Part shown: piece by piece, positions 33,775 to 37,933 of the stretch
How the letters are laid out: the number at the start of each line of letters is the position of its first letter
Position numbering within the stretch: the stretch's first letter is position 1
Position numbers and translations under genes: made by a program
The notes under the pieces: generated by a model
Seen by the model: only the letters and a program-made list of their open reading frames with translations
Databases searched by the model: none
What the model was told of the DNA's origin: nothing
Source: Bacillota bacterium
GTDB lineage: Bacteria > Bacillota > Sulfobacillia > Sulfobacillales > JAIMBI01
Length of the DNA stretch: 39,888 nt
Reading direction: 5' to 3'
Assembly (NCBI GenBank): GCA_021797815.1
Contig: JAJZYZ010000020.1
Coordinates: forward strand, 1 to 39,888

Positions 33775-34603
33775 GGGGTCTGGCCTCTGGTACCAGGACC
33801 GGGGGTTGCGGCGCGCGCCCACGGTGCTGGCGCTTCATGGCTTTACGGGAAGCCACCGGACCTTCGGGGCCCTCGCCGCATGCGCCGGTCCGAGGCTCAG
33901 GACCGTGGCGCCGGATCTCCCCGGACACGGGCGCACGGGAGGCTCGGATCCGGCGAGCATGACCATGGCCCGCACCGCCGCGGCGCTTCTGTCCCTGCCG
34001 CTCCCCCGCGCCTTTCACCTGGTGGGCTACTCGATGGGTGCCCGTACGGCGCTCTATCTCGCCCTCAGCGCGCCGGAGCGCGTCCTGTCGCTGGTGCTGG
34101 AGAGCGGCTCGCCAGGCCTTGCGGACGCCCGCGAGCGGGAAGCGCGGCGGGCTTCTGACGAACACTGGGTGCGGGTGCTCATGGAAGAAGGCCTGTCTGT
34201 TTTCGCCGCCCGATGGGGCGCGCAGCCCCTCTTTGCCACTCAACGGCGGCTCCCGGCGCCCGTGCGGCGCCGCATTGGCCGGGAACGTCGACGTCAGGAC
34301 CCGGCGGGACTGGCGGCGAGTTTGCGGGGCGCCGGAACCGGCGTCCAGGAAAGCCAGTGGGAAAATCTGCGGCGGCTCTCCCTTCCCGTTCTGGTGGTGG
34401 CGGGTGAGCGCGATGCGAAATTCGTAAGCATCGCCGGCGCCATGGCGGCCCGCATGCCGACCGCCCGCGTCGTCGTCCTGCCGGATTGCGGACACGCCCC
34501 GCACCTTGAGGCCCCGGCACCGTTTCTCCGGCTCCTGGCGGAGTTCTGGTCAGGGCTCCCGGACGCGCCGCGCCTGCCGCCGCCCTGGGGCGCCGCCGGC
34601 TAG
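33752..34603 (+). CDS. menH: SHCHC synthase-like alpha/beta hydrolase
   Basis: A 283-residue alpha/beta hydrolase that removes pyruvate from SEPHCHC in menaquinone synthesis. The oxyanion region is LHGFTGS (near 29), the nucleophile Ser94 in GYSMGAR, the acid in AGERDAKF and the base in DCGHAPHLE. The GYSMGxR motif with the men context supports MenH over a generic hydrolase. The ATG at 33752 has AAGGAG 7 nt upstream and lies inside menD. The last 54 bp overlap the convergent anti-sigma-like gene. The next step, menC, is not found in the window. Confidence 0.9.
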   Translation: MPKAASSEGSGLWYQDRGLRRAPTVLALHGFTGSHRTFGALAACAGPRLRTVAPDLPGHGRTGGSDPASMTMARTAAALLSLPLPRAFHLVGYSMGARTALYLALSAPERVLSLVLESGSPGLADAREREARRASDEHWVRVLMEEGLSVFAARWGAQPLFATQRRLPAPVRRRIGRERRRQDPAGLAASLRGAGTGVQESQWENLRRLSLPVLVVAGERDAKFVSIAGAMAARMPTARVVVLPDCGHAPHLEAPAPFLRLLAEFWSGLPDAPRLPPPWGAAG

Positions 34604-34918
34604 GAGTGCGACGAGAAGCCCGCCGGCCCCGCACAGGAGCGTCGACAGGGCCGCCTCCGGTCTCAGAGTCGCGATCGTGCGGTCGGCCATGACCATGAGG
34701 CTCCCGCCGACGCGGGCGTCGAGGGCCGGCCAGGCTGCCATGGCGCCGGTACTCACGATGGCGGCCAGCACGCTTGCAGGAAGGACCCAAGGGGTAGGGG
34801 GCAGGGGGCGGGGACGCACCAGCGGCGGACGCGGAGGAATCGCCACCGGGAGCGCCGCAAGGCTCCGCATCAGTTGGTCCTGTTCTTCTTCTGGCGGCCT
34901 ACGTGTGGGTCCGGACAT
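34550..34918 (-). CDS. Short membrane protein, putative anti-sigma factor
   Basis: A 122-residue protein starting 3 nt after the sigma factor stop; its Shine-Dalgarno GGAGG lies in the sigma gene end. The first 40 residues (EEEQDQLMRSL, then a proline-rich stretch) would be cytoplasmic, followed by two hydrophobic helices (WVLPASVLAAIVSTGAMAAW and LSTLLCGAGGLLVALLAGG). Position and topology suggest it holds the sigma factor at the membrane. It lacks the HxxxCxxC zinc motif of the common anti-sigma domain. The anti-sigma role is inference from context. Its 3' end overlaps menH. Confidence 0.65.
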   Translation of the reverse strand: MSGPTRRPPEEEQDQLMRSLAALPVAIPPRPPLVRPRPLPPTPWVLPASVLAAIVSTGAMAAWPALDARVGGSLMVMADRTIATLRPEAALSTLLCGAGGLLVALLAGGAPGRRQARRVREP

Positions 34919-34921
34919 GCC

Positions 34922-35488
34922 TCATGCCTCCACTTCTCGGATCTCAGGGAGGACGGGCGGCCGTGCCGCGGGGCGACTGTCTCCCCACGCCTCCCGGAGC
35001 CGGATGCGCGCGCGATGGATCCAATTCCGGAGGGTGCTCACGGGCACCGATAGGACCTTGGCCGCCTCCGAATAGGAAAGCCCCTGCACCGCGACGCACT
35101 CGATGGCCGCCCGCCAGAGCGGGGGAAGCGCCATCAGGGCCTGCTCCAGGCGCGCGGCCTCCTCGCGCGCGAAGAACGCGTCTTCGGCCGACGGTCCGGT
35201 TTCCCGAGGAGTCTCCAGTTCGGCGGCAAGACGCAGCCGCGGTTTTCTGGCCGCGCTTCGGGCCAGGTTGAGCGCGATGGCCAGCACCCAGGTGGAAAAG
35301 CGGCTCTGACCACGGAAGGTGTGAAGGCGCGCCCAGGCCTGAGTCAGGGCCTCCTGGGCCACGTCCTCGGCCTCACCGGCGTCTCCGAGGTACCGGTAGG
35401 CGACCCGGTACACGACCGGCCAGAGATCGTCGGCCAGGGCGCGAAAGGCGTCGTCATCTCCCGCCCGGGCCATTTCCCAAAGCTCCAT
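34922..35488 (-). CDS. ECF-family RNA polymerase sigma factor
   Basis: A 188-residue sigma-70-like factor of the extracytoplasmic function type. Region 2 runs from about 14 to 85 (YRYLGDAGEAEDVAQEAL, RGQSRFSTWVLAIALN) and region 4 from about 115 to 170 (LPPLWRAAIECVAVQGLSYSEAAKVLSVPVSTL split into helices, ending RARIRLREAW). There are only about 30 residues between the domains, normal for this class. The frame is open to 35524, but the ATG at 35488 follows GGGAGG with 5 nt spacing and gives the family N-terminus. A TGAAAT-N16-CGTC promoter lies upstream, suggesting autoregulation. The membrane partner gene follows by 3 nt. Confidence 0.95.
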   Translation of the reverse strand: MELWEMARAGDDDAFRALADDLWPVVYRVAYRYLGDAGEAEDVAQEALTQAWARLHTFRGQSRFSTWVLAIALNLARSAARKPRLRLAAELETPRETGPSAEDAFFAREEAARLEQALMALPPLWRAAIECVAVQGLSYSEAAKVLSVPVSTLRNWIHRARIRLREAWGDSRPAARPPVLPEIREVEA

Positions 35489-35506
35489 GCGAGCCTCCCG
35501 ATATCT

Positions 35507-35532
35507 GACGCGCGCTTTTCCCAAAAATTTCA
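35507..35532 (-). promoter_or_regulatory. ECF-type autoregulatory promoter of the sigma gene
   Basis: On the minus strand, TGAAAT (35527-35532), a 16-nt spacer and CGTC (35507-35510) match the TGAAAC-N16-CGTC class used by Bacillus ECF factors. The start would lie near 35500, only a few bases before the Shine-Dalgarno GGGAGG (35494-35499). Confidence 0.55.
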
Positions 35533-35533
35533 G

Positions 35534-35561
35534 TTGAAACTTTTCGGCCCCATCCTACACC
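35534..35561 (+). promoter_or_regulatory. Divergent promoter candidate of the DUF4097-like gene
   Basis: TTGAAA (35534-35539) is followed by 16 nt and TACACC. Read as an ECF element it is TGAAAC (35535-35540), but the matching -10 is not CGTC. The TGAAA motifs of the two promoters face away from each other in a small dyad (TTTCAGTTGAAA, 35528-35539). Confidence 0.4.
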
Positions 35562-35609
35562 AATGAGGCAAGCACGAGTCCGACGGCCAGGAGAAGGGGA
35601 GCGGCTTTT

Positions 35610-36434
35610 ATGCGACGTGGGATAGGCATCGTCGCGATGGGCCTCGGAGTGGCCGCGCTGGTGGCGGCGGCCTGGTCCCTCACGGGCGGTGGGCGGTCGT
35701 TTCACTTAGGCGGCTCGTGGTTCGCCCCGGTCCGCTTTGTGAGCGTGACCCGCCGCGTGCAGCTCCGGCCCGGCGCCACCATCACCATTGACGCCCAGGC
35801 GGCGCACGTGAGCGTCCGCACCGGCCGGCCCGGGGTGATGGATGTGGGCTATACGCTGCCGAGGGGGACGTTTCGCCTGACAGCCGGACCCGGACAGGTC
35901 ACCGTCAGCGATCAGGTGCGAAACCTGAACTTCGGCCTCTTCGCTCCTTCCCTGTTCATGCGGATTACGGTCCCGGCCGGAAGCGTCGTCACCGTGACGT
36001 CGGCAGCCGGGCCCGTCACGATTACCGGGCTCTACTCACGTCTTTCGGTGGCCGCGCTGGCCGGGACCGTTACGGTGCGGGGCACGGTCACCGGTCAGAT
36101 CCGGCTGACAGACGCGGCAGGCCCCATTTCTGCGGACTTTGGCGCTGCTGCCTCCCGCGCGTCCATCGCGGACGCCGCCGGGTCGATTATCCTCGACGGA
36201 CCCTGGGCGCGTGTGGAGTCGGTGCACGCCGAAGCCGGGTCGGTCACCATGAAGGGCGGTCCCGCCGTCAGGACCGCCGTGTCCGTCACCGTAGCCGCGG
36301 GACAGCTGCAGTCCAGCATGGCCGGCCTGCCGTCCGGCGGCAACGGCACGTTCTCGGGGACCGTGGGGCGCCGGGGTGCGGGCGGATCTCTCACCATTCT
36401 GGCCACGGCCGGGTCGGTCACCCTGCGTCCGTAG
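35610..36434 (+). CDS. Exported DUF4097-like beta-helix protein
   Basis: A 274-residue protein with a short basic N-terminus (MRRG), a hydrophobic segment (IGIVAMGLGVAALVAAAW) and then an all-beta, Gly/Thr/Val-rich body in repeated strands of the type TVTSAAGPVTITG, VAALAGTVTVRGTV and AEAGSVTMKGG. This pattern is that of DUF4097/LiaG-like putative adhesins, often linked to envelope-stress regulators. The N-terminal segment is a signal peptide or anchor, so the body is outside the membrane. The ATG is preceded by GGAGAAGGGGAG about 8 nt upstream. It is divergent from the sigma factor. Confidence 0.8.
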   Translation: MRRGIGIVAMGLGVAALVAAAWSLTGGGRSFHLGGSWFAPVRFVSVTRRVQLRPGATITIDAQAAHVSVRTGRPGVMDVGYTLPRGTFRLTAGPGQVTVSDQVRNLNFGLFAPSLFMRITVPAGSVVTVTSAAGPVTITGLYSRLSVAALAGTVTVRGTVTGQIRLTDAAGPISADFGAAASRASIADAAGSIILDGPWARVESVHAEAGSVTMKGGPAVRTAVSVTVAAGQLQSSMAGLPSGGNGTFSGTVGRRGAGGSLTILATAGSVTLRP

Positions 36435-36484
36435 GGGATGCCCCCTCCCGCCGCACCGAGACGTTTACGAGGGAAGGAGACACT

Positions 36485-37009
36485 ATGAGCCTGGTCGCGC
36501 CGGCACTGCTCATCCCCATCATTGCGGTCGGAGGCTTCTGGGCCGTGATTATCCTCGGTCTCGTGTTCTGGCACCGCGAGCGCATGGCCCGCCTCCAGAA
36601 CCCGACGCCGGCTTCGGGGACGACCATGACGACGGCGAGCCCATGGGCGGCCCGGTCCGAGGTAGAGCGCGGCATCCGGCTCGCCGCTCTCGGGACCGGG
36701 CTCGTCGCCGGTCTCTTGCCCATCGGTTTCGGGCCCTGGCTCATCATCGGCCTCATCCCGTTCATCCTCGGCTGCTACCGGGTCGCCATGGTGAGTCTGG
36801 GGCTTGAGCCCGAAGGACATCCCTCTCTTCCTCCCGAAGTGTGGCTCCGGCGAGGCATCCGCACTGCCGTCACCGGCCTCATCGTCAGCATGGTGCTGCT
36901 GTGGATAGGGGTCGGCCCCTGGCTCATCGCCGGCTTCATCCCCTTCTTTATCGGTCTCGGGGACGTCGGGGTGGCTTTTTGGTGGCGGCGGCCAGCGGAT
37001 TCCGCCTGA
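36485..37009 (+). CDS. Membrane protein with duplicated helical hairpin
   Basis: A 174-residue protein: an N-terminal helix (ALLIPIIAVGGFWAVIILGLVFW), a basic and Ser/Thr-rich linker, then two similar hairpins (GIRLAALGTGLVAGLLPIGFGPWLIIGLIPFILG near 59-98 and GIRTAVTGLIVSMVLLWIGVGPWLIAGFIPFFIG near 122-157, both split in membrane segments). The repeat is visible in the DNA too, around 36731 and 36913. The start ATG has AAGGAG 5 nt upstream. It is 50 bp after the DUF4097-like gene and 21 bp before an MscS gene, so these are probably one operon. The N-terminal part resembles small DUF6249-like proteins. Confidence 0.8.
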   Translation: MSLVAPALLIPIIAVGGFWAVIILGLVFWHRERMARLQNPTPASGTTMTTASPWAARSEVERGIRLAALGTGLVAGLLPIGFGPWLIIGLIPFILGCYRVAMVSLGLEPEGHPSLPPEVWLRRGIRTAVTGLIVSMVLLWIGVGPWLIAGFIPFFIGLGDVGVAFWWRRPADSA

Positions 37010-37030
37010 CATGTTCGGGAGGGGATCGGG

Positions 37031-37933
37031 GTGCAGAACAAAGACCGTATCTGGTGGCGCCGTGCCGCCACCCTAGGCGGCCTGCTGTTTTTGGTGGCGG
37101 CAGGCCTGTCCATCGTGCTGAACCATCAGACCGGGCCGATTGCGCTGGTGCCGCACACGTTCCGCGATCCGGCGCGGGCTCTCGTGGTGCTGGCCGTCGG
37201 CTCGATGGTCTCGCTGATTCTGGAGCGGTATGTGTTCCGGACCGGGCTTCCCGGCCTTCCGGCCCGGCAGGTGACGGTTTTCCGGTTCCTGAGCCGGCTC
37301 GTGCTGTATGTGGCCGTCGTTCTGTCCATCGTGGCCGCCTTCGGGGCCAGCGTCACCTCGGTGCTGTTTGGGAGCGCCTTTCTGACCGTCATGCTGGGTC
37401 TCGCCGGTCAGAGCATGCTGGGCAACATTCTGGCCGGGGTGTGGCTCGTCGTCTTTCATCCGTTTGACGTGGGCGACCGCATCGAGTTCATGACCTGGCA
37501 GTACCCGGTCGTCATGCCGTCCTTCCCGCATGAGGTGATGGTGCCGACCCACTCGGGCACGGTCGTGGATGTGAATCTCATGTACACGACAGTCGCGTTT
37601 GACAGCGGCCTCCGGTACGCGGTGCCAAACGGCATCCTGGTGCAGGCGGCGGTGGCGAACCGCTCCCGTCTCGACCGGCGCCGGCTCCGAATCCGGGTCG
37701 ACGTGAAGTTCGCGCACGCGCCGGCCGAGGTGCTGGACGGGGTACGCGAACGCCTTCGCCGGGTGCTGCCACATCCGCTGGTGGATTCGCTGGAGGTGCT
37801 GGTGGGGGACATCGGACCCGATACGTACGGCCTTGTCATTCACGTTACGCACAACGACCGCACGGATGATGAATTGAAGAGCCAGATCCTGGCCGAGGTG
37901 GCGGGGGTGCTGACGGCAAGCGCGGTGGGCTAG
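37031..37933 (+). CDS. MscS-family mechanosensitive ion channel
   Basis: A 300-residue membrane channel of the small-conductance mechanosensitive family, which opens on membrane tension to relieve osmotic stress. Helices lie at about 15-31, 45-65 and 85-105, followed by the pore helix region SVTSVLFGSAFLTVMLGLAGQSMLGNILAG. The cytoplasmic beta domain shows HPFDVGDRIEF and the conserved VPNGILVQAAVANRSR (usually PNS/N). A PHEVMVPTHSG insertion precedes the beta strand. The GTG start has GGAGGGG 6 nt upstream. It is last in the DUF4097-like operon. Its stop overlaps the convergent gene's stop (CTAG). Confidence 0.9.
   Translation: MQNKDRIWWRRAATLGGLLFLVAAGLSIVLNHQTGPIALVPHTFRDPARALVVLAVGSMVSLILERYVFRTGLPGLPARQVTVFRFLSRLVLYVAVVLSIVAAFGASVTSVLFGSAFLTVMLGLAGQSMLGNILAGVWLVVFHPFDVGDRIEFMTWQYPVVMPSFPHEVMVPTHSGTVVDVNLMYTTVAFDSGLRYAVPNGILVQAAVANRSRLDRRRLRIRVDVKFAHAPAEVLDGVRERLRRVLPHPLVDSLEVLVGDIGPDTYGLVIHVTHNDRTDDELKSQILAEVAGVLTASAVG

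Follow-up and report, generated by a model that had tools for sequence, protein, structure and literature searches.

The window analysed here is a stretch of DNA of 39,888 nucleotides from a Bacillota bacterium (Sulfobacillia), in which the genes of interest occupy positions 34550-37933 (Table 1). All five open reading frames that a preliminary description had placed in this interval were found there by reading of the frames and by family searches. The genes of an ECF sigma factor and of a small partner protein lie on the minus strand and are divergent from three plus-strand genes coding for a toastrack (DUF4097-like) protein, a DUF6249 protein and an MscS-type channel. The locus is flanked on one side by menH and an apparent menD, and on the other by genes for a YbaK-like editing domain and a GatD-like amidotransferase. 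The partner gene and menH are convergent, and their 3' ends overlap by about 54 bases (34550-34603).

Table 1. Genes and putative promoters of the divergent sigma factor locus (positions in the window)
Feature	Position	Strand	Basis or remark
Partner, putative minimal anti-sigma factor, 122 aa	34550..34918	-	starts 3 nt past the sigma stop codon
ECF sigma factor, 188 aa	34922..35488	-	family search; ATG at 35488, GGGAGG upstream
Putative ECF promoter for sigma and partner	35503..35533	-	motif; CTGAAAT (35533-35527), 17 nt, GTCAGAT (35509-35503)
Putative ECF promoter for toastrack and DUF6249	35534..35564	+	motif; TTGAAAC (35534-35540), 17 nt, CACCAAT (35558-35564)
Toastrack (DUF4097-like) protein, 274 aa	35610..36434	+	relatives' Pfam score, predicted structure
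DUF6249 protein, 174 aa	36485..37009	+	Pfam profile
MscS-type channel, 300 aa	37031..37933	+	Pfam profile; starts 21 nt after DUF6249

The sigma factor is matched by Sigma70_r2 (PF04542, 8e-16), r4_2 (PF08281, 1.4e-12) and TIGR02937 (2.9e-28), and it has Sigma70 regions 2 and 4 only and the length (about 180-200 aa) of an ECF sigma factor. Its reading frame stops at 34922 on the minus strand. As its start, ATG 35488 is to be preferred over the first TTG (35524), given that the putative -10 element occupies 35509-35503. The sigma factors linked to this module form one clade in the tree (support 97/86). Most of the other ECF sigma factors that we read in the class have larger downstream partners, many of them with an HxxxCxxC motif.

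The partner had been described as a short protein with two transmembrane helices and without HxxxCxxC, and this description holds: two hydrophobic segments are present and the motif is absent throughout. Its predicted topology consists of a cytoplasmic N-terminus (residues 1-44, with a helix at 10-22 and a Pro-rich segment at 23-44), TM1 (~45-61), an amphipathic helix (68-84) and TM2 (~87-107), and the structural model, computed on the single chain and of low confidence (pLDDT 68, pTM 0.25), has a helix at 10-22, an extended segment at 23-44, TM1, a surface helix at 68-84 and TM2. Residues 1-44 of the window's protein contain neither Cys nor His. The relatives of this protein are poorly conserved (22-40% identity to it), and in the alignment all 12 of the 12 family members have a short stretch before TM1, lack the zinc motif HxxxCxxC, and have in that stretch a short helical region and after it a proline-rich segment with the consensus VPPMPxLRLPxRP. 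At most of the orthologous loci the partner gene overlaps the sigma gene or begins almost at its end.

Sequence and profile searches of Pfam and the PDB did not link the partner with any known anti-sigma family. Scanned against Pfam at E 10, the 12 members returned scattered chance matches only, none of them to the DUF5345/YxlC-type or zf-HC2 families, a PDB profile search returned only the ATP synthase c-subunit (E 6), and hhalign comparison with the anti-sigma candidates of other DUF6249-linked sigma factors gave a probability under 1%. Class I anti-sigma domains (ASDI) are four-helix domains of about 101 residues on average and at least 50, and about 44% of them lack HxxxCxxC (PMC7406223), so the missing motif is in itself ordinary; its absence from all 12 members sets the family apart from the zinc-type class I only. 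The part before TM1 in the window's protein, at about 44 residues with one predicted helix, falls short of the class I domain as a whole, the length being clear and the helix count depending on the model with pLDDT 68. Domains of fewer than 50 residues were put aside by the authors of that survey as possible class II, the solved anti-sigma domains described there use at least two helices (PMC7406223), and CnrY, of the class II type, embraces its sigma factor with two helices (PMC4598750). The CnrH/CnrY pair resembles the pair in the window in that the cytoplasmic anti-sigma part is below 50 residues, is carried on a membrane protein and involves no zinc, whereas the window's partner offers one predicted helix and a proline-rich segment, on two transmembrane helices, in place of the two helices with which CnrY wraps its sigma factor. 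Because of this comparison of size and helices with class I and CnrY, we do not file the partner under class I, and consider that it most likely acts like an anti-sigma factor. The earlier proposal of a different anti-sigma type thus finds a basis in the unusual size of the cytoplasmic part and its make-up, but not in the missing HxxxCxxC alone. We would go further only tentatively: it is possible, though rather doubtful, that the family represents a new and smallest-yet kind of ECF anti-sigma factor, in which a single helix and the conserved PPMPxLxLPxRP strand, mounted on two transmembrane helices, would form a clasp unlike those of classes I-III and hold the sigma factor at the membrane.

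Of the plus-strand products, the DUF4097-like protein matches its Pfam family with E=0.027, which is under the Pfam cut-off, and its relatives score up to 8.8e-6. Its AlphaFold2 model (pLDDT 81) consists of an N-terminal helix (6-25) followed by a beta-helix, and the best PDB match of the model is 4qrk (Foldseek 8.9e-10; VIA Z 15.6, rmsd 2.1 over 157 residues), followed by 3pet (Z 15.5) and 4opw (Z 13.5). As 4QRK and 4OPW are structures named for the toastrack fold (PMC11237479), the predicted structure has this fold. The N-terminal helix, a membrane anchor or signal, is preceded by MRR, which by the positive-inside rule suggests that the toastrack domain would lie outside the membrane; the toastrack is usually intracellular according to the argument of PMC11237479. 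A second toastrack (DUF4097) gene of the same genome, above the Pfam cut-off, is located at G000:C115:24402-24977.

The product of the next gene, introduced in the preliminary description as a "duplicated-hairpin" protein, is a member of DUF6249 (PF19762, 2.3e-9, two stretches matched), with 37.6 bits against a Pfam gathering score of 33. It consists of an N-terminal TM helix, a conserved HRERM, and two tandem GxGPWLxxGxIPxxxG hairpins. No DUF6249 match was found in a search of plasmids, and the literature searched held no relevant paper on this domain of unknown function, for which the module supplies a function-bearing context.

The class to which the window belongs comprises 154 genomes, in which close relatives of the sigma factor were read with their surroundings in three families (f1, f24 and f25). 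Wherever all four genes are legible, the order is identical in the three families, with partner and sigma pointing one way and toastrack and DUF6249 the other, and this four-gene core was found again in about ten other genomes. At L047-L049, where the sequence is high in GC, some genes escaped the simple gene caller, and there we located the partner by inspecting the sequence that follows sigma. A profile of the partner matched 13 of the 154 genomes below 1e-20, in every case directly beside this sigma clade, and the next match (6e-5) had no sigma factor with it. Full-length DUF6249, again by profile, is present in the same 13 genomes and in G054, where the rest of the unit lies off the contig, since the DUF6249 gene starts 668 bases from the contig end. 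Three members of the window's own family (G001-G003) have neither the partner nor a close sigma factor nor DUF6249. One weak partner match (L146), which no sigma factor adjoins, was treated as false together with the other weak matches. The comparison with relatives that had been proposed as a check therefore shows the four-gene unit to be kept, in an arrangement beyond chance, and on the evidence of these genome sequences the partner, sigma, toastrack and DUF6249 genes are a conserved unit.

Reading of the intergenic regions at ten orthologous loci brought out a common outward-facing pattern on both strands, GAAAY followed after 16-18 nt by GTC or CAC. This ECF-type pattern was found on 19 of the 20 outward sides, and in 9 of the 10 regions on both; from dinucleotide shuffles, 0.73 sides and 0.01 regions would be expected. 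The comparison with the shuffles overstates the evidence, because the consensus was drawn up after the sequences had been inspected. When only GTC is accepted at -10, 15 of 20 sides carry the pattern; CAC occurs at four sites, which are the promoters of family f1 that face the toastrack gene. The usual form of an ECF promoter is GAAAC at -35 and GTC at -10, with which the shared pattern agrees. The spacer between -35 and -10 is 17 in f1 and 18 in f24 and f25, and within each genome it is equal on both sides. The -35 elements of the window's two putative promoters lie directly side by side (35527-35533 and 35534-35540), and a sigma-70 promoter scan of the divergent region found none. Exact matches to the two module motifs elsewhere in the genome number 5 and 9, which is not far above the control counts, and all of them lie inside predicted genes, except for one (L228) where no gene was called; we therefore claim no wider regulon. 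The position of these other matches in predicted coding sequence supports a closed circuit, with weaker targets still possible.

Taken together, the gene content, the conservation and co-inheritance of the unit, the predicted toastrack fold and the paired promoter-like motifs make it likely, in our assessment, that the four genes form an ECF sigma module which is autoregulated and serves in the response to envelope stress (membrane or wall), with the partner as its putative anti-sigma factor. Thus, of the self-contained surface or osmotic stress module initially proposed, the sigma module is backed by the arrangement, the co-inheritance and the paired ECF-type motifs, but the osmotic part is not. 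In such a module, the two-TM partner would hold the sigma factor inactive at the membrane, its short cytoplasmic end clasping sigma with the amphipathic helix and the Pro-rich strand PPxPxLxLPxR. A signal at the membrane, sensed by the TM pair itself with its very small external loop or by way of the membrane proteins encoded alongside, would then release sigma, and the freed sigma would fire two outward promoters with one common centre. The first would renew sigma and partner, which would amount to autoregulation, and the second would make the membrane-anchored toastrack protein and DUF6249, which may serve as effectors and protect the envelope or act as feedback partners; the MscS gene of this genome is probably carried along on that second transcript. 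It counts against this model that the partner matches neither a known anti-sigma family nor the anti-sigma candidates of other DUF6249-linked sigma factors, that it has a single predicted cytoplasmic helix, and that the promoter consensus was set post hoc, with CAC rather than GTC as the forward -10 of f1.

An alternative is that the partner is a small membrane accessory and that control of sigma falls to DUF6249, to the toastrack protein or to sigma's own level of expression. The want of a recognisable anti-sigma domain in the poorly conserved partner would fit this, as would the invariant cytoplasmic residues of DUF6249 (HRERM after TM1), but we consider it unlikely, as the partner always directly follows sigma and is never a strong match elsewhere, and as other DUF6249-linked sigma factors have a separate gene before DUF6249 which, where legible, resembles a two-TM anti-sigma factor. 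These other loci come from a phylum sample in which DUF6249 occurs in 23 of 398 genomes. Among the 18 DUF6249 loci read, a toastrack gene adjoins in nine or ten, an ECF sigma gene in six, and an MscS gene in one. The six ECF operons (L188, L189, L192, L197, L198 and L200) are like the window in having an ECF sigma gene, a two-TM gene after it where legible, and DUF6249, with a toastrack gene in 3 of 6; they differ from it in that they run in a single direction and their anti-sigma candidates are larger, and the tree does not show their sigma factors to be sisters of the window's clade. Where legible, the gene between sigma and DUF6249 codes for a larger two-TM protein, CxxC-bearing in L189 and L192 and zinc-less in L197, L198 and L200. 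Five further Bacillota loci (L190, L191, L193, L194 and L195, family f55) show a DUF6249-toastrack-DUF6249 triplet, with no ECF sigma gene in the stretch read.

Improbable, too, is an osmotic-stress module in which the MscS channel (PF00924, 5e-11) would be a designed output of sigma. The short distance between the DUF6249 and MscS genes speaks for it, as does a distant Bacillota locus (L196:5686-7490) with MscS, toastrack and DUF6249 in a row, the only other MscS link found. Against it, the surroundings read of the other copies in the class, including that of the same genus (G006), contain no MscS homologue, and the genes after DUF6249 vary there, with an apparent transporter in L046 and L047 and unrelated genes elsewhere. 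Among the class relatives read, MscS adjoins the unit only in this genome; it is probably co-transcribed here with toastrack and DUF6249 rather than being a conserved member of the module, and probably a mere neighbour in this lineage. The osmotic role put forward earlier drew on MscS only and is weak, and finds no support. That the genes are chance neighbours forming no functional unit, as their restriction to a small number of genomes (14 of 154) might suggest, is practically negligible given the conserved arrangement, the co-inheritance and the paired promoter motifs.

By analogy with known systems, the four-gene sigma module is in concept most likely a PspA-free relative of the toastrack systems, such as lia and yvl. 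We take the B. subtilis protein CAB15517.1 to be YvlB. This protein has been assigned as a toastrack, and a linked sigma factor has been suggested as the route by which toastrack operons may signal (PMC11237479); the core regulon of sigma-W in B. subtilis includes yvlABCD (PMC3498285). As would be the case in the window, an ECF sigma factor drives an operon with a toastrack and small membrane proteins, but sigma-W is not linked to its target, its anti-sigma factor RsiW carries a complete class I domain, and PspC stands in place of DUF6249 as the TM partner of the toastrack. Since sigma-W drives yvlABCD and linked-sigma toastrack signalling has been proposed (PMC11237479), this kind of system is known in outline, and what is new here is the divergent layout and the minimal partner. 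For uncultured Bacillota this adds a compact and apparently closed circuit, from an ECF sigma factor to toastrack and DUF6249 envelope proteins through one divergent promoter, and the smallness of the partner tests the minimum needed to inhibit an ECF sigma factor. The lia operon (LiaIHGFSR) and PspA-free toastrack systems (PMC11237479) share with the window a toastrack and a small multi-TM protein tied to an envelope-stress transcriptional switch, whereas in the window an ECF sigma factor and its tiny partner replace the two-component system of lia. There is no pspA in the operon, as there would be in a PSP/Lia system; the only PspA match of the genome, a PspA/IM30 gene, is found on another contig (G000:C15:7697-8386), so that PspA could still cooperate in trans with the toastrack module.
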